A stretch of 40,310 nt of DNA from a virus. Under the pieces are notes generated by a model. It had not been told where the DNA came from and ran no database searches. It saw only the letters and a program-made list of their open reading frames with translations. Below, in pieces: positions 2,076-37,338 of the stretch. A program made the position numbers and the translations under genes. The stretch covers positions 1 through 40,310 of the IMG/VR virus record IMGVR_UViG_3300046506_000180; one strand, 5' to 3'. Every line of letters begins with the position of its first letter. Within the stretch, counting starts at the first letter, position 1.

Positions 2076-4213
2076 GTAAGGCCGTCATCAAAACCCATTA
2101 CGACGCGGAAACTCTGGCGGCCATGCACGTTCCCGGGCTCCCAACCACGCGCGTCGCAATGTTCAAACGGGCCAAGGCAGAAGGTTGGCCATTTATCGAA
2201 GTCGCTGGCAGGGGCGGCAAGGGCGGCGTGCGTCGCGAATACGCTCCACCGGACGAGATTATGGCTGCGATCCAAGCGAAAGCTACGCAAGCACTGGTCG
2301 CGACGATGCCTGCAAACCGCGTGGCGCTGCGGCCGGAAGACCAGCTTCCGCTCATTCAGACAGACGAGCGAGTGGTGCAAACCGATGCCCGCCATGGCGT
2401 GCTGCTGGCGCTCGACACCCTGATGGCGCGCTTCGGCTACCCGCTGAAGAAGGCGGCCCGGGTACTCATCGAGCTGGCGCGCAACGGCGAGGCCGGCGAA
2501 CAGCTGACGGCCATGCTCAAGCTGGCCCGCGATGGACGCGGCCGGCCAAGTCCGGACGGCCTGCCGTCCGAACGCAGCGTGCTGCGCTTCGTCGAGTACC
2601 AGAGCGCCGGAATGCTGGCGCCGAAGACGCGCGAAGTCGACATGAGCGTGCCGCCCTGGGCGAAGGCATTCCTGGAGTACTACCAGCGCCCGGAAAAGCC
2701 GACCGTCGAGCACGCCTACCGCCAGTTCGTGAAAGCGCTGGACGACAGCGCCAAGGCCGCGGCTCCAAGCGTCTGGCAGGTGCGCCGGTTCCTGGCCAAG
2801 GTCGGCAACGTCACCCTGCAGATGGGCCGCATGGGCGATCGCGAGATCAAGAGCCTCAAGCCGTTCATCCGGCGCGACTTCGCGAACCTGCTGCCGAGTG
2901 ACATTTATAGCGCAGACGGGCACACCTTCGACGCCGAGGTGCAGCACCCGATGCACGGTCGCCCGTTCCGCCCGGAGATCACCTCGGTCATCGACATCGC
3001 CACCCGCAAGGTGGTCGGCTGGTCGCTCGACCTGGCCGAGAGCGGGTTCGCGGTGCTGGACGCCCTGCGGGCGGCCGCCCTGACCGGCGGCATCCCGGCG
3101 ATCTTCTACGTCGACAACGGCTCGGGCTACAAGAACGATCTGATGACGGACGTGGGTGTCGGCCTGATGTCGCGGCTGGGGACCGAGATGATCAACTCGC
3201 TGCCCTACAACAGCCAGGCGCGCGGCGTGATCGAAAAGCTGCACCAGACCATTTGGGTCAACGCGGCCAAGGAGCTGCCGGGGTTCATGGGCCGCGAGAT
3301 GGACCGCCAGGCGAAGCAGGTCGTTCACAAGCTGTCACGCCAGGCGATTAAAAAGAAGCCTGCAGGCGAAGCGGTAGCTATGCCACTGCTCGGCTGGGAC
3401 GCATTTGTCGCCTTCGCCGAGGAAAAGGTGGCCGAGTACAACAACCGCCCGCACCGTTCACTGCCGAAGATCGCAGACGCCAACACCGGCCGGCGCCGTC
3501 ACATGACGCCGAACGAAGCATGGATGCGCGCCGAGGATGCCGGTTTCGCCTCCTTCGTGGTCACCGACGACGAGGCCCGGCCGCTGTTCCGGCCGCAGGT
3601 CCTGCGCACCGTGCAGCGCGGCGAGATCAACTTGTTCAGCAACCGCTACTTCTCGCGCCAGCTGGAAGAGTTCCATGGCGACCAGCTGCGGATCGGCTAC
3701 GACATCCACGACGCCGAGAAGGTATGGGTCTACACGGCGGAGGGACGGTTCATCTGCACGGCCGAGCTGAACGGCAACCAGCGCCCTTACGTAGCGCCTT
3801 CGGTGATGGACCAGGCCCGCGACAAGCGCCTGGACGGCAAAGTGCGGCGCCTCGAGGTGAAGCTGGACGAGGCGCACGCGGAGCGGCGCGGCACCCCGGC
3901 CATCGAGCAGTCCGACACGGTCAGCATCCCGGGCTTCATGAGCATGAGCATCAGCCAGCTGGCCGAGCGTGCGCGCCTCGCCCAGGTGGTCGAGGTGACG
4001 CCGGTCGCGCCGCCGGTGCAGGCGGCCCTGATCGACCCGATGCCGGACCTGAACGAATGGACGATCCCGGCCACCGCGCAGGAGCGGTTCACCGAGTGGC
4101 AACGACTGAACAACTTGAGGGAGGAGGACTTAGACAGCGAGAAACAAAAAAAATGGCGGCACACCTATCAGGCGACCGCCGAATTCCGGGCTTTTCAACG
4201 TAAGACGGCTTAA
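2072..4213 (+). CDS. MuA-like DDE transposase
   Basis: Catalyses integration and replicative transposition of the phage by binding the end motifs. The 713-residue length is slightly above Mu A (663). An N-terminal DNA-binding region with the TTRVAMFKRAKAEGWPF segment is followed by a subdomain for end binding. The rve-type catalytic core comes next (about 275-400), then a C-terminal beta-barrel and a charged tail. The DDE residues are visible: D282 in ADGHTFD, D348 in YVDNGSG and E388 in ARGVIEKLHQ. The start ATG overlaps the previous stop. The MuB-like gene follows 50 bp downstream. Confidence 0.96.
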   Translation: MSKAVIKTHYDAETLAAMHVPGLPTTRVAMFKRAKAEGWPFIEVAGRGGKGGVRREYAPPDEIMAAIQAKATQALVATMPANRVALRPEDQLPLIQTDERVVQTDARHGVLLALDTLMARFGYPLKKAARVLIELARNGEAGEQLTAMLKLARDGRGRPSPDGLPSERSVLRFVEYQSAGMLAPKTREVDMSVPPWAKAFLEYYQRPEKPTVEHAYRQFVKALDDSAKAAAPSVWQVRRFLAKVGNVTLQMGRMGDREIKSLKPFIRRDFANLLPSDIYSADGHTFDAEVQHPMHGRPFRPEITSVIDIATRKVVGWSLDLAESGFAVLDALRAAALTGGIPAIFYVDNGSGYKNDLMTDVGVGLMSRLGTEMINSLPYNSQARGVIEKLHQTIWVNAAKELPGFMGREMDRQAKQVVHKLSRQAIKKKPAGEAVAMPLLGWDAFVAFAEEKVAEYNNRPHRSLPKIADANTGRRRHMTPNEAWMRAEDAGFASFVVTDDEARPLFRPQVLRTVQRGEINLFSNRYFSRQLEEFHGDQLRIGYDIHDAEKVWVYTAEGRFICTAELNGNQRPYVAPSVMDQARDKRLDGKVRRLEVKLDEAHAERRGTPAIEQSDTVSIPGFMSMSISQLAERARLAQVVEVTPVAPPVQAALIDPMPDLNEWTIPATAQERFTEWQRLNNLREEDLDSEKQKKWRHTYQATAEFRAFQRKTA

Positions 4214-18499: not shown

Positions 18500-18517
18500 T
18501 GCTGACACGTGTCAGCA
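18500..18517. promoter_or_regulatory. 18-bp palindrome, candidate activator site of late promoter 2 (head/tail block)
   Basis: This is an exact second copy of the palindrome at 10596..10613 (TGCTGACACGTGTCAGCA). It lies 35 bp before the protease start in the 252-bp non-coding gap, the position of the C-dependent PI promoter in Mu. The same site in front of both late blocks points to shared control, most likely by the Mor-family activator. Confidence 0.7.
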
Positions 18518-18552
18518 TGTTGTGGCACGCCCATCGCTGCGACGATGGCGTC

Positions 18553-19677
18553 ATGCCTAAACGCACTCCAACCCCCACTTCAACGCCCTTCGGCATTGCC
18601 GCCTGCTCCCTGGCCATCACGCCTGGGCGCGAGCTGCAGCTGCTGCCGGCCGGCTCGTTCAGGGGGCGCGACGGTCGGCCGTTTGACGCGCCGGGCTGGT
18701 TCATCGACGGCGCGCTGGCGCAGCTGCTCATCTCAGCAGCGGACGCGCGCGGCACGCCGTACGTGCTCGACTACGAGCACCAGACGCTGCTGGCCAAGAG
18801 CAACGGCCAGCCGGCGCCGGCGGCCGGGTGGTTCAAGCAGCTGGAGTGGCGCGACGGCGTCGGCCTGTTCGCCATCGACGTGGAATGGACCGACCGCGCC
18901 GCCGGCATGATCGCCGCGGATGAGTACCGCTACATCTCGCCCGTCATCGGCTACGACAAGACCACCGGGGCTGTCACCTCTCTATATATGGCTGCGGCCA
19001 CCAACAACCCCGCGATCGACGGGATGAGCGAAGTCCTGCTCGAGGCGGCGGCGCTCCACTTTTCCTTTTCCCAACCCACACCTCTTTCGGAGGAAGTAAG
19101 CATGAACATCGAAGAACTGCTGGAGCAGCTGCGCTGGATGTTGAACCTGCCCGTCGGCGCAACCGCCGAGGACATCAAAGCCCACCTGCAGAAGCTGATC
19201 GACCAGATCAAGACCGACAATCCGTCTGCGACGGCCGCCGCCTCGTTCGACCTGATCGGCCATCTGGCCCGCCAGCGCGAACAGGTCGCCAGCCTGAGCG
19301 CGGCCATCCCTGACCCGGCCAAGTTCGTGCCGGTCGCCACGATGACCGCCCTGCAGGGCCAGGTCGCCGCGCTGTCGGCCGAGCTGAACGGAGGTCGCGT
19401 CGACAAGGCCGTGAAGGACGCGCTCGCAGCCGGCAAGCTGCTGCCCGCCCAGGAGCCCTGGGCGCGCGAGTTCGGCACGAAGGACTTCGCCGCGCTGTCG
19501 GCCTACCTGGACAGCGCGCCGCCGATCGCCATCCTGTCCGGCATGCAGAGCAACACCGTGACCCCACCGAAGGGTGGCGTGGCCGCGCTGACGGCCAACC
19601 AGAAGGACCTCTGCCGGGTGATGGGCGTGCCGGAGGAGGACTTCCTGAAGACCCTGCAGGCGGACGCCGCGTCCTAA
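18553..19677 (+). CDS. head maturation protease/scaffold (Mu gpI-like)
   Basis: A 374-residue protein. The N-terminal domain (TPFGIAACSLAITPGRELQLLPAGSFRGRDGRPF, later VLDYEHQTL and YRYISPVIGYD) matches Mu-like gpI proteases. The C-terminal half (from about residue 184) is a helical scaffold region. The ATG at 18553 is the only start that gives a normal protease N-terminus, yet it has no Shine-Dalgarno sequence and lies only 35 bp after the activator palindrome. A second start with a strong ribosome site lies inside the gene. Confidence 0.9.
   Translation: MPKRTPTPTSTPFGIAACSLAITPGRELQLLPAGSFRGRDGRPFDAPGWFIDGALAQLLISAADARGTPYVLDYEHQTLLAKSNGQPAPAAGWFKQLEWRDGVGLFAIDVEWTDRAAGMIAADEYRYISPVIGYDKTTGAVTSLYMAAATNNPAIDGMSEVLLEAAALHFSFSQPTPLSEEVSMNIEELLEQLRWMLNLPVGATAEDIKAHLQKLIDQIKTDNPSATAAASFDLIGHLARQREQVASLSAAIPDPAKFVPVATMTALQGQVAALSAELNGGRVDKAVKDALAAGKLLPAQEPWAREFGTKDFAALSAYLDSAPPIAILSGMQSNTVTPPKGGVAALTANQKDLCRVMGVPEEDFLKTLQADAAS
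19102..19677 (+). CDS. internal in-frame start: scaffold protein (Mu Z-like)
   Basis: The sequence CGGAGGAAGTAAGC leads into an in-frame ATG at 19102, the strongest ribosome site in this region. Translation from it would give the 191-residue C-terminal part alone (MNIEELLEQLRWMLNLP..., acidic and helical). In Mu, the scaffold Z is made from an internal start in the protease gene I, and many phages nest scaffold genes this way. The product is predicted, not observed. Confidence 0.65.
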   Translation: MNIEELLEQLRWMLNLPVGATAEDIKAHLQKLIDQIKTDNPSATAAASFDLIGHLARQREQVASLSAAIPDPAKFVPVATMTALQGQVAALSAELNGGRVDKAVKDALAAGKLLPAQEPWAREFGTKDFAALSAYLDSAPPIAILSGMQSNTVTPPKGGVAALTANQKDLCRVMGVPEEDFLKTLQADAAS

Positions 19678-19720: not shown

Positions 19721-20125
19721 ATGGTTGCTTTGACCTCTTCGCGTGCCACCCCGCAAAAGGGCACCGAACTTGCCGTGTTCCCGGTCGCGGCCGGCGTAAA
19801 GATTTACGGCGGCTCGCTCGTCGCGCTGAACGCTGCCGGCTACCTGGTGCCCGGCACCACGTCGACCACCCTGCGTTACCAGGGCCGTGCGGAAGACTTT
19901 GCCGACAACACGGGCGGCGCTGACGGTGCCAAAACTCTCGCAGTGCGGCGCAAGCAGGCCTTCAAGTTCGCGAACTCCCAGGTGGACCCGCTGGGCCAGG
20001 CCGACGTCGGTAACACGGTCTACATCGTGGACGACCAGACGGTGGCCAAGACCAACGGCGCGGGCACCCGCTCCGCCGCCGGCAAGTTGCTCTCGCTCGA
20101 ATTCGACGGTGTCTGGATCGAGTAG
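19721..20125 (+). CDS. capsid decoration/cement protein (DUF2190-like)
   Basis: A 134-residue beta-rich protein with features of head decoration proteins: an N-terminal TELAVFPVAAGVKIYGGSLVALNAAGYLVPG, repeated beta segments, and a GLGQADVG-like turn (VDPLGQADVGNTVYIVDDQTV). It sits between scaffold and major capsid gene, the usual place for such proteins. The ATG follows GGAGATATATAG. Confidence 0.8.
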   Translation: MVALTSSRATPQKGTELAVFPVAAGVKIYGGSLVALNAAGYLVPGTTSTTLRYQGRAEDFADNTGGADGAKTLAVRRKQAFKFANSQVDPLGQADVGNTVYIVDDQTVAKTNGAGTRSAAGKLLSLEFDGVWIE

Positions 20126-20170
20126 CACCCGCCAACCGCAGTAAACCTTTCCATTAGGACTTCGCGAAAC

Positions 20171-21268
20171 ATGAAAAAAACCATCTTCAAGACTCTCGCC
20201 TGGGTCGTCCTGGGCACCCTGGCGGCCTTCGGTTGCAGTGCCGTGTACGCGGCCGCTTCCGGTCCCGCCCTCGGCCAGGCGAGCGATCTCGTGCCGCAGC
20301 TGGGCCTCGGCGGCGCGCCGGCTATCGCCATGGGCGGCCTCCTGGTTAACAAGGAAACCGTCGGCAACCTGTTCACCAGCCTGAAAACCACCTTCAACAA
20401 TGCCTTCTCGGCCGCCCCCTCGGACTGGGAGCAGATCGCGATGAAGGTGCCGTCGACCACCGGCCAGAACGATTACGCCTGGCTGAGCAAGTTCCCGCGC
20501 ATGCGCCTGTGGATCGGCGAAAAGTCGATCAAGGCGCTGTCGCTGTTCAAGTATGTGATCGTGAACACCGACTTCGAGGCGACCGTCGAGGTCGACCGCA
20601 ACGACATCGAAGACGACAACCTGGGCATTTACCTGCCGCAGGCGACGGCAGCCGGCGACTCCGCCAAGCAGCTGCCAGACGAGATCATCGCCGACGTGGT
20701 GAACGGCGCTTTTGTCACCAAGTGCTACGACGGCCAGTACTTCTTCGACGTCGACCACCCCGCCAAAGACGATACCGGGGCGGACATCTCGGTCGCCAAC
20801 ATGTTCGACAAGAAGCTGAGCATCGCCAGCCTGGCGGCTGTCCAGGCCAGCATCGGCGCCGCCGAGACCGCCATGATGGAGTTCAAGGATGACGAGGGTC
20901 GCCCGCTGAACATCAAGCCGAACGTTCTGATGGTGCCGCCGGCACTGAAGGCCACCGCGAACACCCTGGTCACCACCGACCGCCTCGAGGACGGCGTCCC
21001 GAACCCGTACAAAAACGCCTTCACGGTGCGCGTCGACGCACGCCTGAAGTCGCGCACTGCCTGGTATCTGCTGGATACGACCAAGCCCGTCAAACCGTTC
21101 GTCTACCAGGAGCGCAAGGCGCCGGTCTTCGTCCAGCAGACCGACCCGCAGGCCGACGACGTGTTCAACCGCAAGAAGTTCAAGTTCGGCGCCGAAGCCC
21201 GGGCGGCCGGCGGCTACGGCTTCTGGCAGCTCGCCTACGGCTCGACCGGCACGGTCGCGCCAGTCTGA
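20171..21268 (+). CDS. major capsid protein (Mu gpT-like) with signal-peptide-like N-terminus
   Basis: Main shell protein, 365 residues. The gpT-like fold is recognisable from about residue 56: VNKETVGNLFTSLKTTFNNAF, then MRLWIGEKSIKALSLFKYVI and DTDFEATVEVDRNDIEDDNLGIY-like segments, with a C-terminal FKFGAEARAAGGYGFWQLAY. Unusually, residues 1-28 look like a Sec signal peptide (MKKTIFKTLAWVVLGTLAAF, CSAVYAAAS), followed by a ~25-residue linker. The upstream AGGA at 11 nt supports the start at 20171; an internal ATG at residue 54 has no ribosome site. The leader may be removed by the gpI protease. Confidence 0.93.
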   Translation: MKKTIFKTLAWVVLGTLAAFGCSAVYAAASGPALGQASDLVPQLGLGGAPAIAMGGLLVNKETVGNLFTSLKTTFNNAFSAAPSDWEQIAMKVPSTTGQNDYAWLSKFPRMRLWIGEKSIKALSLFKYVIVNTDFEATVEVDRNDIEDDNLGIYLPQATAAGDSAKQLPDEIIADVVNGAFVTKCYDGQYFFDVDHPAKDDTGADISVANMFDKKLSIASLAAVQASIGAAETAMMEFKDDEGRPLNIKPNVLMVPPALKATANTLVTTDRLEDGVPNPYKNAFTVRVDARLKSRTAWYLLDTTKPVKPFVYQERKAPVFVQQTDPQADDVFNRKKFKFGAEARAAGGYGFWQLAYGSTGTVAPV

Positions 21269-21354: not shown

Positions 21355-21822
21355 ATGGAAAAAAACGCATCGGCCGCCTCAGCTCGGAGGGGCGGCAAAC
21401 CCTCGCAAAAGGGCGCCCCGACCGCTGGCGCCCAGGAACTGCAACCGAGCACCACGGCGGGCGGCGGCCAGCTGCAGGCGGGCCAGCCGGGGTCGGCGGA
21501 GGGTCAGCTGCAGTCGGACCCGGCCTCGGCCGGCTCCCATTCGCACCAGGGCGAGGACAGCGCTGGCGGCCAAAGCCAGCAGGCCGCAGCGGTGGCCAGT
21601 GGCGCAAGCGCCGACAAGACGAGCGTCGTTTCACCCCCAAGCATCTATGGTCTCGAGGTGACATCCAGGCAGGAGGGATTCCGCCGCGCTGGTCGCGCCT
21701 GGAGTACCACGCCGACCGTGATCGGGTTTTCTGAGATCAACGAGGAACAGGCTTTGCAGCTGAAGAACGAGCCGATGCTGTCGATCCGCCCGGTGTTGTT
21801 ACCGGTCTGCGAGGAACCATAA
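21355..21822 (+). CDS. Mu gp35-like (HI1506-related) protein with low-complexity N-terminus
   Basis: A 155-residue protein. Residues 1-95 are low-complexity, rich in Gln, Gly, Ser and Ala. The C-terminal ~55 residues form the recognised domain (LEVTSRQEGFRRAGRAWSTTPTVIGFSEINEEQALQLKNEPML), as in Mu gp35/FluMu gp35. The role is unknown; the position after the capsid gene suggests a structural or assembly part. The N-terminal region is probably disordered. Confidence 0.82.
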   Translation: MEKNASAASARRGGKPSQKGAPTAGAQELQPSTTAGGGQLQAGQPGSAEGQLQSDPASAGSHSHQGEDSAGGQSQQAAAVASGASADKTSVVSPPSIYGLEVTSRQEGFRRAGRAWSTTPTVIGFSEINEEQALQLKNEPMLSIRPVLLPVCEEP

Positions 21823-24733: not shown

Positions 24734-27700
24734 ATGAGCAACAACCAGGTCGAGTATGGAATCCGCATCAACGTCAGCGGCAATCGGGCCTCTTCTGATG
24801 CCATCGACCAGGTCGCCGTGTCGACCGACAAGCTCACCACTGCCAGCGAGAAGGCCGGCCAGTCCCTGACCGTCGTCAACGGCCAGATGAACGATACGGC
24901 CGTCATGATGCGCAAGAGCGCCGAGGCGACCAGCCTGGCGAGCGAGGCGGCCCAGAAGTTCCTGGCGCCGCTGCAGCGGGAGATCGACCTGTTCGGCGCC
25001 AGCCGGGCCGAGGTGGAGCGTTACAAGGCATCCAAGGCCGGGCTTTCGTCCGTCGTGCAGCAGCAGGCCGCCGCCCTGGGCGCGTCGATCGACGCGATGC
25101 ACCGCGACGAGCAGGCCGCGCGGCTGCTGGCAGCCGAAGAGGACCGGGCAGCCAAGGCCGCCGAGCAGTTCCTCAACAAGCTCAAGGAACAAGTTGCGGT
25201 GCTGGGCATGAACACGGCCCAGCTGCAGGCCCACCGCGCGGCGCAGCTCGGCGTCTCGGATGCGGCCGCGCCGCTGATCGCCAAGCTATCCGAGGCCGGG
25301 GCCGGTGCCCACTCAGCAGGCAAGCACATGGAGGGGCTGAACTTCCAGACAGTCGGCGCGCGCCGCGAGCTGCTCGTCCTGATGCACGAGCTGTCCCAGG
25401 GGAACATCAAGAATTTTGGTGGATCCATGATGGTCCTGGGCGAGCAGACCGGCGCCGCCGGCTTGCTGTTCAGCGCGGCCGGCCTGGCAGCAATCGGCCT
25501 CACGGCTGCGGTGGTCGGTGTCGGCTATGCCGTCATCAAGGGCGCAGCCGAGCAGCGTGCGATGAACAACGCGCTGATCGAGACCGGCACCTATGCCGGC
25601 GTCACCGGCGATTCACTCAACGCCATGGCACACGCAGCGGTCGAAACCGGCGGCAGCATCCGCGAAGCGAAGAAGGCGGTGACCGAGCTGGCCGCTACCG
25701 GGAGATTTACCGGCGACCAGATCGGCTACATTGCCGACGCCGCGATCGCCATGGAGCATGCCACCGGCAAGTCGATCGAAAAGACCATCAAGGAGTTCGA
25801 ATCTCTGGCGGTCCAGACCAGCGGCAACAGCCTGCGGGCGACCGAGGCGATCTCGCGCGCGGCGCTCAAGCTGGACGATCAGTACCACTTCCTGACCGAG
25901 TCAGTCTACGAACAAATCCGCGCCCTGGAAAAGGAAGGCGACCAGAAGGGAGCGTCGGCGCTGGCCACCGAAACTCTGGCGAAGGTCACCAAGGAGCGCG
26001 CCGAGGAGATGGTCAGCAACCTTGGTTATGTCGCACGTGGCTGGCATGCGGTCACGGAAGCGATCGGCGGGGCGGTCGACAAGATTGGCGAATGGGGATC
26101 GAAGAGCCCGGGCAGGATCGTTGATCGGTACGTGGCCGAGTTGCAGGCCTTCGACAAGGCTGTGCGGGGCGACCATACGCGCAACGGCATCGACCCGGAC
26201 AAGCTGACCGCTGGCGAAGAGCGTGCACGCGCCGCCATCGTCAATGACCTGACCAAGGCGGTCATCGAGAAGAACAAGGCCGACGCCGCGGCGATCGCGC
26301 AGGGCGAGACCCAGCGCGCCCAGTCCGAAGCGGCGCACGCGGCCTCTCGCATCGAGCAGGACGACGTCCGCCTAGGCAAAAAGGGTATGTCCGAGCTGGA
26401 CGACGCGATCCAGAAGTACGGCGAGGACCTCGCCAAGCTCGCGGCTGCCAACCCGGGCAGCAAGCTGCTCGACCAGGACGAAGTCAACAAGCACATGGCG
26501 TTGATCCTCAAGGCGCACACCGCAGCCGCGAAGGGCAACGACGACCGGGCCAAGCTGCTGCAGGACGCACTGACGATCGAGCAGACCGGGCTGGATCGCG
26601 AGAGGTCGATCTACGAGGCGCGCGACAAGATGCTGTCGCTCTATCACTCGAAGTTCGGCCTGTCGGACGACGACTTCTACGCCGGCCGCGCCGCCGCGCG
26701 CGCCGAATACATCGCCTCCGAGGCAATCACCTATGCCCAGGAGACGGCGCTGGTCCAGGGCGCGATCGCCAGGACCCCGCAGGAGGTGGCGGCCCGGAAG
26801 GCCAAGTACGACGAACTGGTGAAGGCGCACCAGAAGTTCGTCGACGACATGCGCAATGCGGGCGGCGAGGACGTGCTGAGCCAGATGGCGGCCAGCGACG
26901 CCATCGTCAGGCAGTCGGACGACACGATCAACAAGTACATCTCATCGCTCGACCAGGAGGCGCAGAAGCTCGAGGATGCCAACAAGGGCCACGAGCTGTC
27001 GCGGGCCAGCGTTGAGCGTGAGACGGTCGCCCGGCTGGATCTGGCGATCGCGTACGAGAAGCAGTGGCTCCTGGAGCAGTCGCTCGTAGCGGCTACCGCT
27101 GATGAACTCGCCCAGGGCCAGGCGGTACTCAAGTTTCTCGAAGACCAGCGCACCGCGCGGCTGCGCATCGCTCAGGCGCTGGACCAGGCTGACGCCGACA
27201 AGGCTGCCAAACACGCCGCCCAGAAGGCCGCCCAGGAATGGGATACCACGGCAAAGCACATCCAGACGACGCTGGCCGACGCGATCATGAACGGTGGAGC
27301 CAACGCCTGGAAGAAGCTCAAGACTGCGATCGCCCAGCAGGTCCTGCAGGTGCCGCTCCAGTATATCGGCAACACGGGTGCCTCCTTCATGGTGCCAAAC
27401 GCGCCGCAAGCTTCGAGTGCGCTGGGTGGCAGCACGGGATCGGGCGCGATCGGCGCCGCCCAGACCGCCTCCAGCCTGTACAAGATGGTCAGCGGTGGTC
27501 TCCTCGATGGCGCCGGTACCGCAATTGCCTCCGCCGGAACCCTGTTCGGTTCGAGCGCGTTGTCGGCCTTCGGTGCTGGCTTTGCTGGCAATGCGGCCGG
27601 CACCACCATGACTGCCGCCGAGATGTTCCAGGGCATGGGCATGACGACCGAGGCGAGCGCCGCCAGCGCGGGGTCGGCGGCCGCCAGCTATGCCGAGGTC

Positions 27701-29944
27701 GGCGCGGGCCTGATCGCCGGGCACTACATCGGCGGTGCCATCTCGAATGGCTACGGAAGCCAGTCGACCACCAACGTTTCCCAGGCCATCGGGACCGCGA
27801 TTGGCGCTTACCTTGGTGGGGCTGGTGGCGCGGCCATCGGCGCGGCCATCGGCGGCGCCGTTGGCGGCCTGTTGAACCGCGCCTTCGGGATGGGCGAGAA
27901 GAAGACGACCCAGGGAGTCGAGGGCAATATCACCAGCACCGGTACGACCGGCAACGCATTCGAGAACTGGACCCAGGAGGGGGGCTGGTTCCGGAGCGAC
28001 AAATCGGGCGGCAGCACGTCGGCACTCCCGACTGACCTCGCCAACTCGTTCACCGCTGGACTCGCCGCGCTCAAGGCCGCGAGCGCGGGTTTTGCCAAGT
28101 CGCTCGGCGTCGATGCGGACAGCATAGCCGACTACCAAAAAACGTTCCGTTTCAATTTCTCGGCAACCGACACGGCCGCGAACCAGAAGATCATCACCGA
28201 CTTCTTTATCAGCGTCGGCGACGATCTTGCTACCCGCCTCGTGCCGAGCCTGTCGCAATTCCAGCGCACCGGCGAGACCGCAGCGGCCACACTGCAGCGC
28301 CTGTCCGGCGAGTTCCAGGTCACCGACCAGATCGCGCAGCTGATGGGGAAAACGTCGGCGGAGGTGTTCGGCAAGCTGGGCATCGAATCGGCGGCGGCGC
28401 GCGAGCGCCTGATCGACCTCGCTGGCGGCGCGAGCACCCTTGCTCAGCAGGCCGCGGGCTATGCGCAAAACTTCTTGAGCGAGGCCGAGCGCCTGGCGCC
28501 GGTGAGCAAAGCGGTTGCCGCCGCGATGGCCGAACTCGGCCTGGCCGACATCACCAGCCGCGAGCAGTTCAAGGCGCACGTCGACCAGCTCGTGTCGTCC
28601 GGCGCCGTCCTGACCGAAGCCGGTGCCAAAGAATTCGCAAGCATGATGCAGCTGGAGGACGCGTTCGCCCAGGTGCACCCTGCGATCGAGGCTACGACGG
28701 CGGCCGTGCGCTCCCAGGCGGACGTGCTGGCCGAGCGTGCGGACCTGCAGCAGCAGCTTGACGAGCTGACCCTCTCCTCGACCGCACTGCTGAAAAAGCA
28801 GCGCGACGCCCTGGACGAAACGAACAGGGGCTTGTTCGACCAGGTGCAGGCAGCCCACCAGGTCGACGCCGCGCGCACGGCACTGACGGAGGCTTACCAG
28901 CGTGAGGCCGATGTAATCAAAGCCACCCAGGATCGCATGAGTTCCTTCGCCAGCAGCCTGCGCGCGCTGCACGACAACGCGCTGCTGGGCGACCTGTCGC
29001 CCTTGACCCCCCAGCAGAAATACGCCGAGGCCAAGGCTCAATACGAGCGCACGCTCGCCGGGGCACGCAATGGCGACGCGACCGCCCAGGCGAACTATGA
29101 CCAAGCCTACAACGCGTTCCTGACCGCTTCGCGCACCGTCAATGCCAGCGGCGGCCAGTACCAGGCCGACTTCGCGTACGCCCAGCGGGCGACCGAGGAG
29201 GCGGCGACGTGGGCCGAGCAGCAGGTCGACGTGGCGAAGGCGAGCCTGGATGCGCTTGAGGCGCAGGTGTCCGGCCTGGTCGACGTGAAGGACGCGGTGC
29301 TGTCCGTGCACGAGGCGATCGCCGCGCTGGCCGATGCGATGGGGGCCGATGGCGCCGAGGTGGTCGGGGGCGCCCAGGCGCGCGCGATCGAGGCGCTGTA
29401 CCAGTCACTGCTGGGCCGGGACGCTGACCAGGGCGGCCTGCAGTTCTGGCAGCGCCAGATGGCGCAGGGCGCCAGCGTTGGTGATGTCGGCTCCCTGATC
29501 AGCCAGAGCGACGAGTACGGGGTCGAGGGCCTCTACAAGTCGATGCTTGGCCGCTTGGCCGACAAGGCCGGCATGGACTACTGGCTCGAAACGATGCACA
29601 ACGGTGCAACGCTCACCGACGTCCGCGATGCCATCAGCAAGAGCGATGAGTACTCGCTTTACAACCCCGGCGGCGCGGCGACCGAGCCGGCCGCCTATGG
29701 GATCGACTACAGCGCGATGGGCACCGCGCCGGCGCTGATGTCCTTGGTCAAAGACCTGCGCGAGGACAACAAGGCCCTGACCGCCCAGGTGGTGGGCTTG
29801 CGGGCTGACCTGAGCCAGCAGACCGGCGACCAGATCAACGCCACCTTCCGTGCCAGCGACGAGTCAGCCAACAAGATCGCCGATGCGACAGCACTGGCTG
29901 TGCAGTCGGCCGCGGCGAAAGAAACAAGGGTGATCCCGGTATGA
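24734..29944 (+). CDS. tail tape measure protein with C-terminal DUF4214 repeats
   Basis: Sets tail length, 1736 residues. The N-terminal ~250 residues are helical/coiled coil. A membrane-active hydrophobic region follows (LLFSAAGLAAIGLTAAVVGVGYAVI, about 240-270), with TMP_2-like segments after it. Long coiled coils come next, then a second Gly/Ala-rich hydrophobic region (about 900-1060, with IGTAIGAYLGGAGGAAIGAA). Residues about 1550-1645 hold two tandem DUF4214-like copies (ALYQSLLGRDADQGGLQFW; LYKSMLGRLADKAGMDYW). These are unusual in tape measures. The length predicts a tail of about 240-260 nm at 0.15 nm per residue. Confidence 0.93.
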   Translation: MSNNQVEYGIRINVSGNRASSDAIDQVAVSTDKLTTASEKAGQSLTVVNGQMNDTAVMMRKSAEATSLASEAAQKFLAPLQREIDLFGASRAEVERYKASKAGLSSVVQQQAAALGASIDAMHRDEQAARLLAAEEDRAAKAAEQFLNKLKEQVAVLGMNTAQLQAHRAAQLGVSDAAAPLIAKLSEAGAGAHSAGKHMEGLNFQTVGARRELLVLMHELSQGNIKNFGGSMMVLGEQTGAAGLLFSAAGLAAIGLTAAVVGVGYAVIKGAAEQRAMNNALIETGTYAGVTGDSLNAMAHAAVETGGSIREAKKAVTELAATGRFTGDQIGYIADAAIAMEHATGKSIEKTIKEFESLAVQTSGNSLRATEAISRAALKLDDQYHFLTESVYEQIRALEKEGDQKGASALATETLAKVTKERAEEMVSNLGYVARGWHAVTEAIGGAVDKIGEWGSKSPGRIVDRYVAELQAFDKAVRGDHTRNGIDPDKLTAGEERARAAIVNDLTKAVIEKNKADAAAIAQGETQRAQSEAAHAASRIEQDDVRLGKKGMSELDDAIQKYGEDLAKLAAANPGSKLLDQDEVNKHMALILKAHTAAAKGNDDRAKLLQDALTIEQTGLDRERSIYEARDKMLSLYHSKFGLSDDDFYAGRAAARAEYIASEAITYAQETALVQGAIARTPQEVAARKAKYDELVKAHQKFVDDMRNAGGEDVLSQMAASDAIVRQSDDTINKYISSLDQEAQKLEDANKGHELSRASVERETVARLDLAIAYEKQWLLEQSLVAATADELAQGQAVLKFLEDQRTARLRIAQALDQADADKAAKHAAQKAAQEWDTTAKHIQTTLADAIMNGGANAWKKLKTAIAQQVLQVPLQYIGNTGASFMVPNAPQASSALGGSTGSGAIGAAQTASSLYKMVSGGLLDGAGTAIASAGTLFGSSALSAFGAGFAGNAAGTTMTAAEMFQGMGMTTEASAASAGSAAASYAEVGAGLIAGHYIGGAISNGYGSQSTTNVSQAIGTAIGAYLGGAGGAAIGAAIGGAVGGLLNRAFGMGEKKTTQGVEGNITSTGTTGNAFENWTQEGGWFRSDKSGGSTSALPTDLANSFTAGLAALKAASAGFAKSLGVDADSIADYQKTFRFNFSATDTAANQKIITDFFISVGDDLATRLVPSLSQFQRTGETAAATLQRLSGEFQVTDQIAQLMGKTSAEVFGKLGIESAAARERLIDLAGGASTLAQQAAGYAQNFLSEAERLAPVSKAVAAAMAELGLADITSREQFKAHVDQLVSSGAVLTEAGAKEFASMMQLEDAFAQVHPAIEATTAAVRSQADVLAERADLQQQLDELTLSSTALLKKQRDALDETNRGLFDQVQAAHQVDAARTALTEAYQREADVIKATQDRMSSFASSLRALHDNALLGDLSPLTPQQKYAEAKAQYERTLAGARNGDATAQANYDQAYNAFLTASRTVNASGGQYQADFAYAQRATEEAATWAEQQVDVAKASLDALEAQVSGLVDVKDAVLSVHEAIAALADAMGADGAEVVGGAQARAIEALYQSLLGRDADQGGLQFWQRQMAQGASVGDVGSLISQSDEYGVEGLYKSMLGRLADKAGMDYWLETMHNGATLTDVRDAISKSDEYSLYNPGGAATEPAAYGIDYSAMGTAPALMSLVKDLREDNKALTAQVVGLRADLSQQTGDQINATFRASDESANKIADATALAVQSAAAKETRVIPV

Positions 29945-33388: not shown

Positions 33389-34225
33389 GTGCCAAACCTT
33401 CGGATCATTTACGACAATGCCGCGGATCGCTCCGTGATCGTCGCCTCGAGCGCGGCAAGCAGCGACATGGGCGTCGCCAACGTCTACACCGACATCAAGT
33501 CGGACGTCTGGCGCAGCATCGGGACCACCGCCACGCTAACGGCGACCTGGCCGGCGCGGGAAACCATCGGCGGGGTGGTCCTGCCGTTCTGTAACCTCAG
33601 CTCGCGGGCAACGATCCGTGTTCGCGGGTATGCGGAAGTGGCCGATGCGGCACCGCTATTCGATACCGGCGCGGTCTACGCCTGCCCGGCGCCGGTCCTC
33701 GGGATGTGGAACTGGGGTGCCGAGCCCCTGGGCTCCAATTCGTTCGCTTACGGTGGTGGCACCTACGGGCGGGTGTGGATCCCCGTGCCAGGGGCGGTGA
33801 AGAAGCTGGCGATCGACATCGAGGACGCGACCAACAAGGATGGCTACCTCGAGGCGTCGCGGCTGGTCTGTGGCGCGTACTGGTCGCCAAAGTACAACTT
33901 CGACTACGGCCACCCGCTGACGCCGGTCGACACGAGCAAGCACTACCGCAACGCTGCAGGCGACCTGGTGACGGATGCCGGCACGAAGCACAGGCAGCTG
34001 TCGTTCAACCTCTCCAGGATGAGCCCGACCGACCGGGCTGAGTTCTGGAGCATCGTCCGCAGCAACGGCATGACCCGGCCCATGCTCGCAAGCTTGTATC
34101 CCAACAACGTCGATACGCGGCTGGAGCAGGACTACCAGGTGTACATGAAAATCACGATGCCTGAAGCACTGACCAGTCCGCAGTTTCAGCAGTATGTGAG
34201 TTCCATTGAAGGCGAGGAAATTTGA
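33389..34225 (+). CDS. tail protein of unknown function
   Basis: A 278-residue protein from a GTG at 33389 with GGGAGG 6 nt upstream. It is beta-rich (VYTDIKSDVWRSIGTTATLTATWPARETIGGVVLPF; YGRVWIPVPGAVKKLAIDIEDATNKDG), like a carbohydrate-binding or jelly-roll fold. The C-terminal half ends MSPTDRAEFWSIVRSNGMTRPMLASLYP. It lies between two fibre genes and its last base overlaps the next start. Probably part of the tail tip; no family named with confidence. Confidence 0.75.
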   Translation: MPNLRIIYDNAADRSVIVASSAASSDMGVANVYTDIKSDVWRSIGTTATLTATWPARETIGGVVLPFCNLSSRATIRVRGYAEVADAAPLFDTGAVYACPAPVLGMWNWGAEPLGSNSFAYGGGTYGRVWIPVPGAVKKLAIDIEDATNKDGYLEASRLVCGAYWSPKYNFDYGHPLTPVDTSKHYRNAAGDLVTDAGTKHRQLSFNLSRMSPTDRAEFWSIVRSNGMTRPMLASLYPNNVDTRLEQDYQVYMKITMPEALTSPQFQQYVSSIEGEEI

Positions 34226-37200
34226 TGAGTGATCCCTTTACCTACGGAATGCCGGCGAGCGACGCGATGGCGGCGCTCAACCAGCTCAACAAGGACGCGC
34301 TGGCGGCGAAGGCGACAGGCGACGCAGCTCAGGGGAACGCGGCGATCGCCGCCCAAGCTGCGCAGGATGCTGCCGGCAGCGCGATCACCGCTGGGCAGGC
34401 GGCTGCTGCCGCGACGACCAAGGCGGCTGCAGCCCAGGATGCGGCTACAGCTGCAGCTGGATCGGCAACTGCCGCAGGTATCTCGGCTGGGCAGGCTGGC
34501 CAGAGTGCGACGGCGGCCGGTAACAGCGCGACGGCTGCTGCAGGAAGCGCTACCAACGCGGCTACCCAAGCAGCGGCTACAGCGGCGAACGCCGCTAACG
34601 TCACTGCGGTGAACACGACGGCCACTAACGCAGCGGCGGCGGCGGCCGGAAGTGCCACGCAAGCCGCTAGTGCCAAAGATGCTGCTATCGCCGCCTGGCA
34701 GGCCAGTACGGCGCCGGCGGAGAGGCTGGCAGCGTTCTCTCAGTCGATTCACTTCGGTGCGATCGTCCGCGCCTTCCTGTACGACACCAGCAAGGACAGT
34801 GACGGCGGCGCCTGGCGCAAGCGCTGTCTGCATACCAGCTGGTACAACGAAGCGATTCAGACCGGCTCCTGGCGTGGGCAGCTGGCCAACCTGCCGGCCG
34901 CGTGGGCGATCCAGGGCGCGGGCGTGGGCGACTACTACCAGAACACGACGGACGGAAAGTTCTACGCGATCGGCGGCACCAGTGCGGCTCCTACGCAAGC
35001 GGAGATTTTCCGAGGGAGCGCGCGCGAGTTCCCAGCGCTAACCGCCATCATCGCCACGGGCAGTCGCATCGTCATTTACGACCTCACCCAATCTGGCGGG
35101 CCCATGTGGATGGTGTTCGGCAACACCTTCGGTGGGACGATTTCCGGGCTGTACGCGCTCAACGGTGAACTCATGTTCACGACCGGCGAGCGGCTTATTC
35201 GTGCCCAGACTGTTCGCGACAGTATCATCCAGCATCACACCTCGCCGGCTGGACGTGGTTCCTACGGCAACATTGCTGCGCGCAATACCACCCCGATCGT
35301 GTTCATCCTTGATTCGTCCATCGGAGCGATCGTCAACACCATCTGCAACGACGTGGCGGCCACTGTCCTGCCTGGGGCACCGGTCGAGCCGGCCACCGGT
35401 CTTCCAGTGCCAACCATTGCAGTCGCGACCGCTGGCGGGGTAACAGCCATCAAACATGACGGCACGGTCGCCAACTTCGCCACTTCGGCATGGTCGCATA
35501 TTGCTTGGCTCAGCTCGTCCCTGCTGTTTGGCCGTCGCGGCGGGTCGGCTAACGTCAACTTCCAGACATTCGAGGCGCTCACATACCCCGCGCTAACTAG
35601 TGTACAGATCACTTCTCCATCTACGCTGCAAGGAACAGTTACGAGCGACACGGCAAGCCAAGTTTGTACACTGCCGGTGCGTAGTACGGTGGCAAATGGC
35701 ACGTCTACTGGCCTGAGTCTGCTGCAACACAATCCTGCAACGCCGACCAAGGGGATGGTTGCCTACATCACGAACGCTTACAACAGTGGGTGGCAGGTGG
35801 GCGACATCCGTGGCGCGTGGCTGGCTGATACGGTGGCGGAAGTAGTCATTGGAGCTGAGCTAGTGACGAATGGGATTTTCGCTGTCGATACTTCAAGCTG
35901 GACCGCTGCTAATGGCGCGACGTTGGCAGTCGTTGCTGGGGAATTACAGCTGACCTCGACCGGTCAAGACTACCCCTCCGCCCAGCAAGTCATCAATGGG
36001 CTGGTGGTAGGCCGGTCATATACCTTGAGCGCCACGGCGAGGCGCGGGACCTGCGTAAGCAACATTGCTGTCGGTGTCGCAGGGATCAATAGCGTCCAGT
36101 CGCCATCTGGTATCAATGTTAGTTTGCCGCTCAACTTCACCGCAACGGCAACCTCACATGTTATTTTCGCCCAGATCGTAGCAACGGCAGCGAATGGTCA
36201 AACCGCTTACTTCGACAATATCAGTATCAAAACCCTTGATGCCGACCGCAGCGTGAAGGGCAAGGGCCCGACCGTCAACGGCAGTATCACTAAGGTGCCT
36301 GTCGCCGCCGGCGCGCAGCTGGTCTGCTATAGCGGATTCAGTGCCGCCAACTATCTGGAGCAGCCGTACAACAGCGATCTCGATTTCGGCTCGGGAGACT
36401 TCTGTGTAGCAGGGTGGTGCAATCAGCCGGTGGCCGGCACTATGGTGCCGTTCAGCCGCAGCACGGTGGGCAATACACCCTCCCTACTCGCGATTGTGCT
36501 AAATCCGACCAAGATTGACGCCTACGCAGGCACCGGTGCCGCCACCATTTCCTATGCTAGTGCCCCGCCGGTCAATGCATGGACATTCCTGTGTCTGATA
36601 CGGCGTGCCGGCACGCTGTACCTGTACCTGAACGGGATCGCGGTAGCGCAGGGAGCCAGCGTGGCCAACCTGACGGACGCCACAGCCAAAACTGCGCTCG
36701 GCGTCTACAACTTCACCAACCCGCCTACGGTGCCGTTCAATGGCACTCTGGCGTTGTGGCGCGCGACCGCAACAGCTCCTAGTGAAGACCAGATTGCCCA
36801 GATGTACCGCGACGAACTGGCGCTGTTTCAGCCGAGCGCGAAGTGTACGATCGACGGGACAAGCAACGGCGTCACTGCGCTGGCCTACGACGACACCGCC
36901 GACCTGCTGCATGTGGGCACTACCTGGGGGCGAAGCGCGTTCCGCGGGCTGCAGCGCATCGAGAGCTCGGCCACGTCGGTAGGCGCGATCACGACGCTGG
37001 CAGCAGCCCAGGGCGCCCACATTACCGGCGGCGCCAGTTCCGGTCGCTACGTCCAGCCTGCGATGCTGCTGCGCGACGAATTGCGCCGTCGCGACGATGC
37101 GCGCCGCGCAATGGCGCGCGAAGAGATTCCGTTCGAGTTCGACAGCATCGCCGCGCAGACCGCGTTCCAGCTGCCGATCGGCTACACCACGAAGAACGTG

Positions 37201-37338
37201 CTCGTCGCGGGTACCAAGAAGCGGCTTGGCAGTACAAAGGATTACACGGTGGCCTTCGACGGCTACCGCGAGACTGTCAACTTCGGCGTATCGCCGGGGG
37301 CGACCTGGGTTCAAATCACCGCCAATAGGAGCATCTGA
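34225..37338 (+). CDS. tail fibre/receptor-binding protein, alanine-rich shaft
   Basis: A 1037-residue protein from the ATG at 34225. Residues about 20-160 are an Ala/Thr/Gly repeat region (e.g. AQDAATAAAGSATAAG) that likely forms a trimeric coiled-coil shaft. A propeller-like middle follows (about 250-470). Two lectin-like parts come next: a CBM-like segment (ELVTNGIFAVDTSSWTAANG...) and a LamG-like one (GSGDFCVAGWCNQPV...LYLYLNGIAV). The C-terminus (FQLPIGYTTKNVLVAGTKKRL...VTANRSI-type) may aid trimerisation. The region around 35580-36250 is poorer in GC, a sign of recent exchange of the receptor-binding part. Confidence 0.85.
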   Translation: MSDPFTYGMPASDAMAALNQLNKDALAAKATGDAAQGNAAIAAQAAQDAAGSAITAGQAAAAATTKAAAAQDAATAAAGSATAAGISAGQAGQSATAAGNSATAAAGSATNAATQAAATAANAANVTAVNTTATNAAAAAAGSATQAASAKDAAIAAWQASTAPAERLAAFSQSIHFGAIVRAFLYDTSKDSDGGAWRKRCLHTSWYNEAIQTGSWRGQLANLPAAWAIQGAGVGDYYQNTTDGKFYAIGGTSAAPTQAEIFRGSAREFPALTAIIATGSRIVIYDLTQSGGPMWMVFGNTFGGTISGLYALNGELMFTTGERLIRAQTVRDSIIQHHTSPAGRGSYGNIAARNTTPIVFILDSSIGAIVNTICNDVAATVLPGAPVEPATGLPVPTIAVATAGGVTAIKHDGTVANFATSAWSHIAWLSSSLLFGRRGGSANVNFQTFEALTYPALTSVQITSPSTLQGTVTSDTASQVCTLPVRSTVANGTSTGLSLLQHNPATPTKGMVAYITNAYNSGWQVGDIRGAWLADTVAEVVIGAELVTNGIFAVDTSSWTAANGATLAVVAGELQLTSTGQDYPSAQQVINGLVVGRSYTLSATARRGTCVSNIAVGVAGINSVQSPSGINVSLPLNFTATATSHVIFAQIVATAANGQTAYFDNISIKTLDADRSVKGKGPTVNGSITKVPVAAGAQLVCYSGFSAANYLEQPYNSDLDFGSGDFCVAGWCNQPVAGTMVPFSRSTVGNTPSLLAIVLNPTKIDAYAGTGAATISYASAPPVNAWTFLCLIRRAGTLYLYLNGIAVAQGASVANLTDATAKTALGVYNFTNPPTVPFNGTLALWRATATAPSEDQIAQMYRDELALFQPSAKCTIDGTSNGVTALAYDDTADLLHVGTTWGRSAFRGLQRIESSATSVGAITTLAAAQGAHITGGASSGRYVQPAMLLRDELRRRDDARRAMAREEIPFEFDSIAAQTAFQLPIGYTTKNVLVAGTKKRLGSTKDYTVAFDGYRETVNFGVSPGATWVQITANRSI

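Follow-up and report, generated by a model that had tools for sequence, protein, structure and literature searches.

The head operon and its capsid gene

The window, by which we mean the whole 40,310-base stretch of DNA analysed here, is an IMG/VR virus record with the gene content of a Mu-like phage. Transposition genes of the MuA and MuB types are followed by the genes for the portal, gpF and the gpI protease, and tail genes lie downstream of a gpT-type capsid gene. The gpI-type head maturation protease, identified by Pfam and PHROG profile matches, is encoded at 18517–19677 on the plus strand, as are the structural protein, the capsid protein and all parts of the leader described below. A nested in-frame start at 19102 within the gpI gene, with its own strong GGAGG site (GGAGGAAG), would yield a Z-like scaffold protein (19102–19677), as in Mu. 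The constant neighbour upstream of the capsid gene is a virion structural protein of 134 aa (PHROG 1731; 19721–20125). Among the tail genes, the tape measure protein (24734–29944, 1736 aa) carries a DUF4214 near its C-terminus and a TMP_2 domain, and a 1038-aa tail-region protein (34222–37338) with a Laminin_G_3 (concanavalin A-like lectin) domain is a possible receptor-binding part. The gene directly after the capsid gene (21355–21822) is of low complexity in its N-terminal half and matches FluMu_N weakly, with a score under the curated cut-off.

The major capsid gene (20171–21268) encodes 365 aa, and the N-terminus of its open reading frame reads MKKTIFKTLAWVVLGTLAAFGCSAVYAAASGPALGQASDLVPQLGLGGAPAIAMGGLLVNKETVGNLF. 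Residues 59–365 (20345–21265) form the conserved gpT-type core with the HK97 fold, as judged by profile matches and PDB homologues: PF10124 (Mu-like_gpT) matches from residue 66 (4.6e-95) and phrog_371 (PHROG 371, major head protein) from residue 59 (4.3e-102). The position of the gene in a Mu-like head operon, after gpI and the small structural gene, is that of a gpT capsid gene. By both sequence and fold the best PDB match is the capsid of phage JBD30 (Casadabanvirus; 8rkc, 1.6e-60, and 8rkx), which shares the gpT family, the HK97 fold and the type of gene neighbourhood with the window; it is 304 aa long, leaderless, and its chain begins where the core of the window protein begins. A further solved homologue, Mu gpT (9jod), is of the same family and also lies in a Mu-like head operon; unlike the window protein, it is leaderless, with 305 aa. 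The core is thus well studied, and the solved gpT capsid structures are all leaderless.

In the window, 58 residues precede this core, which begins V59-N60-K61. The leader (residues 1–58; 20171–20344) is in frame with the core and is supported by an alignment of 26 leader-bearing homologues and by dN/dS. It opens with an n-region, MKKTIFK (20171–20191), of net charge +3 (K2, K3, K7), followed by an h-region defined by hydropathy (residues 8–23, including W11; 20192–20239). V-Y-A (20243–20251) is a predicted signal-peptidase I site of the AxA type with the cut after A27; together with the A-A-S that follows, it makes up residues 25–30. Next come a K/R-free linker (residues 28–43; 20252–20299) and a non-polar, Gly/Ala-rich junction patch (residues 44–58; 20300–20344) matching the motif (D/E)xLPxIGFGG[LM][LI]. 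An AlphaFold model built with 26 sequences has a helix at residues 2–29 and no structure at 30–61; the model as a whole is poor (pLDDT 53) and supports the N-terminal helix only. A lipoprotein lipobox ([LVI][ASTVI][GAS]C) is absent from the window leader, which has A-F-G-C at residues 19–22. The earlier note had described a K-K start, a hydrophobic core, an AYAAAS-like cleavage region and a linker, all of which are present in the window sequence. It had also given the leader 55 residues; an extra N-terminal segment indeed exists, but it ends at residue 58, the PHROG 371 match starting at residue 59.

Translation start and spread of the leader

The earlier note proposed aligning gpT homologues to see how widespread the leader is. 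From 81 IMG/VR relatives, 80 loci in named genomes and a further four virus scans, 301 distinct gpT cores were obtained, 66 of which carry a leader of 42–58 aa (mode 48 aa) with the same layout. Another 232 are leaderless and start exactly two codons before the core. The resulting share of 22% is not a prevalence, as sampling followed leader-bearing queries; one contig, L440, ends inside the leader. Leaders thus occur on dozens of related viruses, with hosts in several bacterial phyla. In a phage collection with 216 matching records, the alignments begin at residue 52 or later among the matches listed, and the phages inspected one by one were all leaderless. The leader may have gone unnoticed because no isolated phage compared here shows one. 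A sig_peptide annotated on a Salinibacter gpT protein (H115) proved to span the whole coding sequence, and that protein is leaderless.

In the 81 IMG/VR relatives two classes of start were seen. In most genes translation begins exactly two codons ahead of the conserved Val (MLVNK, MIVNA); a Shine-Dalgarno site marks this start, and little space separates it from the upstream gene. The remaining genes have the leader in frame and a Shine-Dalgarno site before the distal ATG. Of 63 leader loci, 60 have such a site ahead of the distal ATG, a count that is partly circular since the start picker itself used Shine-Dalgarno sites. In the window it is TAGGA (20155–20159, plus strand), 11 nt before the leader ATG and weaker than in most relatives, which have AGGAG at the same place with a spacing of 6–9 nt.

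The earlier note named initiation at the internal ATG (residue 54; 20330–20332, plus strand) as the result that would overturn the leader. In that case the leader would not be made at all. The window and 39 of the 63 leader loci do have an in-frame ATG near the core (within 12 codons), and the operon does contain a genuine nested start, that of the scaffold at 19102 within gpI. That nested start, however, has a GGAGG site, whereas a Shine-Dalgarno site precedes 0 of 60 internal ATGs of leader loci; in two further loci, L122 and L149, a GGAGG happens to stand before an internal ATG, and the distal ATG has a clear site. Fourteen leader loci have no ATG, GTG or TTG within 12 codons before the core. 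Nor is the internal Met conserved: position V-2 is Leu as often as Met (24 of 50 leaders each). The leader is moreover under purifying selection, and an internal start is scarcely credible. We conclude that the leader is not a mis-called start.

In the same close pairs, at similar synonymous divergence, dN/dS is 0.06–0.70 in the leader vs 0.03–0.20 in the core. From this balance of synonymous and non-synonymous changes we conclude that the leader is translated and under purifying selection, yet evolves several times faster than the core.

Among the virus records searched there was one gpT place per record (three profile pieces of the same gene). Since many leader loci also lack a second start, the leader-bearing protein must build the capsid. 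This bears on whether the capsid protein is exported, wholly or in part, to the periplasm. Judged by sequence rules, the leader looks like an ordinary Sec signal peptide, which is what export would predict; however, the single gpT place and the 14 loci without a second start leave no separate source of a cytoplasmic form, and the capsid is needed in the cytoplasm for DNA packaging. Export is a highly improbable reading.

Gain and loss among related phages

On a tree of the capsid core, the distribution of the leader needs about 24 gains or losses, 14 of which are forced by supported branches. The close relatives L003–L005 are leaderless, and because they do without it the leader is not essential to the fold. 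In L004 and L005, the nearest relatives of the window, the leader was lost by deletion and the event can be seen directly: at about positions 2920–3005 the upstream spacer and the five initial leader codons (ATGAAAAACACGATC) are kept and the remainder is deleted. A new GGAGG site lies at the core start, and the leftover short open reading frame overlaps the new capsid start.

The idea that the leader travels with the upstream gene by recombination was rejected, as the upstream-gene tree requires 17 changes and the capsid core tree 16 for the same loci. Across 23 leader and 18 leaderless phages no gene family follows the leader; the single strong match, in these 41 phages, was an antisense open reading frame over the leader itself, an artefact. 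Contractile-tail and other phages are present in both groups, giving no link to tail type. A search of supported independent pairs for compensating core residues gave none below p 0.1 in 546 tests, with low power. We conclude that the leader is an autonomous, dispensable module. The earlier note had also considered a gene fusion; a one-off event of this kind is unlikely, as the same module with a common junction motif recurs in dozens of phages.

Leader phages have hosts in the Nitrosomonadales, Burkholderiales, Rhodocyclales, Mariprofundia, Geobacterales, Desulfovibrionales and Nitrospiria, that is, by host group, Betaproteobacteria, Mariprofundia, Desulfobacterota and Nitrospiria. Among cultured hosts, Herbaspirillum sp. 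ST 5-3, Nitrosomonas communis Nm44, Geomonas limicola Red745 and Nitrosovibrio sp. Nv4 contain candidate leader-bearing prophages. The leader was absent from the 16 Pseudomonadales, 9 Neisseriales and 4 Enterobacterales loci sampled, a link between leader and host that is confounded by ancestry.

As a separate observation, the family of the gene after the capsid gene (21355–21822) is commoner in leader phages (12 of 23 vs 4 of 18, p 0.06 uncorrected).

Leader composition and a possible membrane stage in capsid assembly

Signal-peptide features were measured by simple rules. In the first 40 distinct leaders the N-terminus has a net charge of +1 to +3 throughout, and the 12-residue hydropathy maximum is 2.05–3.28, against a core median of 0.98. 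Over 19 residues, the best hydropathy of every N-terminal segment (100%) is 1.6 or more. Among 50 non-redundant leaders, the first 8 residues hold 95 K/R and one D/E, but from residue 9 to the core there are only 8 K/R in 2008 residues, in a protein whose core is 10.6% K/R. An AxA-type site (AxA or VxA) lies within residues 20–36 in 45 of the 50, against a mean of 33.9 in composition-preserving shuffles, 0 of 1000 of which reach 45. By sequence, then, the leaders have the parts of a Sec/signal peptidase I substrate: a positive n-region, a hydrophobic h-region and, after it, an AxA-type c-region. The linkers (mean length 19.6) contain 6 K/R vs 71 D/E in 982 residues, and this charge distribution looks like the positive-inside pattern. 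The earlier note's suggestion of membrane targeting gains support from the excess of AxA sites over chance and from the K/R content of the linkers (6/982, compared with 10.6% in the core).

At the junction with the core the leaders share the consensus (D/E)xLPxIGFGG[LM][LI]VNK, with G at V-3 in 47 of 50, G or A at V-6 in 42 and D or E at V-12 in 23; the non-polar run of this patch has a median of 12. The motif bears on the suggestion that the leader serves as a nascent-chain or dosage device: by directing the ribosome to the membrane it would slow or limit synthesis of the capsid protein, or bring in chaperones, and what later becomes of the leader would be irrelevant. Fast sequence evolution with conserved general properties would suit such a device, as would the many gains and losses. 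A conserved motif beside the core, however, suggests a structural or processing role too, and a pure dosage role is at best a slim possibility.

An uncleaved leader might instead persist on the capsid as an N-terminal membrane or hydrophobic anchor. Its strong hydrophobic helix, with no K/R behind, is what an anchor would have, but the leaders retain AxA sites, along with the usual helix breakers, beyond chance, and it would be costly to expose several hundred hydrophobic helices on each head. We regard a lasting anchor as quite unlikely.

The main rival, also raised in the earlier note, is that the leader is a delta or scaffold-like domain that stays cytoplasmic, occupies the procapsid interior and is taken off by the gpI protease of the phage. 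The capsid precursors of HK97, T4 and P2 lose N-terminal segments to phage proteases; the HK97 gp5 delta domain and the T4 gp23 N-terminal segment are scaffold-like pieces of this kind. These precedents favour removal by gpI, as does the gpI-type maturation protease encoded just upstream, and the window leader resembles the gp5 and gp23 segments in extending the N-terminus of an HK97-fold precursor and in being expected to be missing from the mature shell. The N-arm of JBD30 also changes on maturation, placing the N-terminus where the structure changes (PMC11445458). An HK97-type delta or scaffold domain, however, is hydrophilic and often coiled-coil, and the leaders are hydrophobic; in composition (K/R 8/2008) they do not bear out the scaffold-like part of the proposal. 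The window leader further differs from the gp5 and gp23 segments in being free of K/R after its start and in its AxA site. Charge pattern and AxA site would be expected of a segment that crosses the inner membrane, and a soluble delta domain needs neither of them, nor the hydrophobicity. In addition, leaderless sisters share gpI and the gene order. Removal by gpI therefore seems unlikely, if less so than the alternatives above.

The leader is signal-peptide-like, modular and repeatedly gained or lost, and these sequence data suggest that the capsid protein goes to the cell membrane before it is assembled into a shell. We tentatively favour, at somewhat less than an even chance, a capsid precursor with an optional, cleavable signal-peptide-like leader that forms a membrane hairpin, with the core remaining cytoplasmic and signal peptidase making the cut. 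A hairpin is proposed because the membrane-crossing signature must be reconciled with head building in the cytoplasm. The basic N-terminus and hydrophobic helix would enter the inner membrane; the linker, about 20 residues long, acidic and free of K/R, would cross to the periplasmic side, and the short non-polar junction patch would lead back to a core that remains in the cytoplasm. Signal peptidase I would then cut at AxA on the periplasmic face, freeing the subunit, which would retain a short N-terminal extension and enter procapsid assembly.

M13 procoat has a basic and hydrophobic leader, an acidic, K/R-poor loop of about 20 residues and a hydrophobic return segment, and is cleaved by signal peptidase. 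This is the layout proposed for the window leader, for which we infer insertion and cleavage from sequence; M13 procoat is otherwise a small single-span membrane protein of unrelated fold. Its return segment is a full transmembrane helix, in contrast to about 12 residues in the gpT leaders. A procoat-like second membrane-spanning segment was not found, only 10% of junction patches reaching 1.6 over 19 residues. Against the hairpin, then, the return patch is too short and weak for a normal transmembrane helix; the leaderless close relatives, and the lack of co-varying genes or compensating core changes among the phages compared, also count against it.

Under the hairpin reading, the leader may dock or store subunits at the membrane until assembly. 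The JBD30 capsid N-arm (residues 6–25) is helical in the procapsid and unfolds as the capsid matures (PMC11445458). Because this arm rearranges, a tether at the end of the capsid N-terminal arm could delay or localise assembly. It is possible, but rather doubtful, that in a large group of tailed transposable phages, patchy in its distribution, the host signal peptidase, not a phage protease, licenses membrane-docked capsid subunits and so ties assembly to the inner membrane. The leader itself is well established and its mechanism less so; insertion, hairpin topology and cleavage by signal peptidase, with membrane-linked or delayed assembly as their purpose, are what we infer.

In the parts of the open-access literature that were searched, we found no description of a leader on gpT or any other tailed-phage capsid protein; the KS10 paper reports a signal peptide on the lysin, not on a head protein. 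As far as that search goes, the leader is a real, recurrent and undescribed variant of a well-known capsid protein. If the membrane reading is true, there are tailed phages whose main shell protein is sent to the membrane, unforeseen by textbook cytoplasmic assembly, and the licensing of capsid subunits by host signal peptidase would be a route of maturation for which the literature searched has no description in tailed phages. Sisters with the leader (the window and L002) and without it (L003–L005) form a natural experiment, and such pairs make the question directly testable.

Trp occurs within residues 6–16 in 24 of 50 leaders. At residues 9–11 of the hydrophobic segment it recurs in distant leaders (e.g., L018, L042, L247 and L331), which is odd for plain signal peptides.
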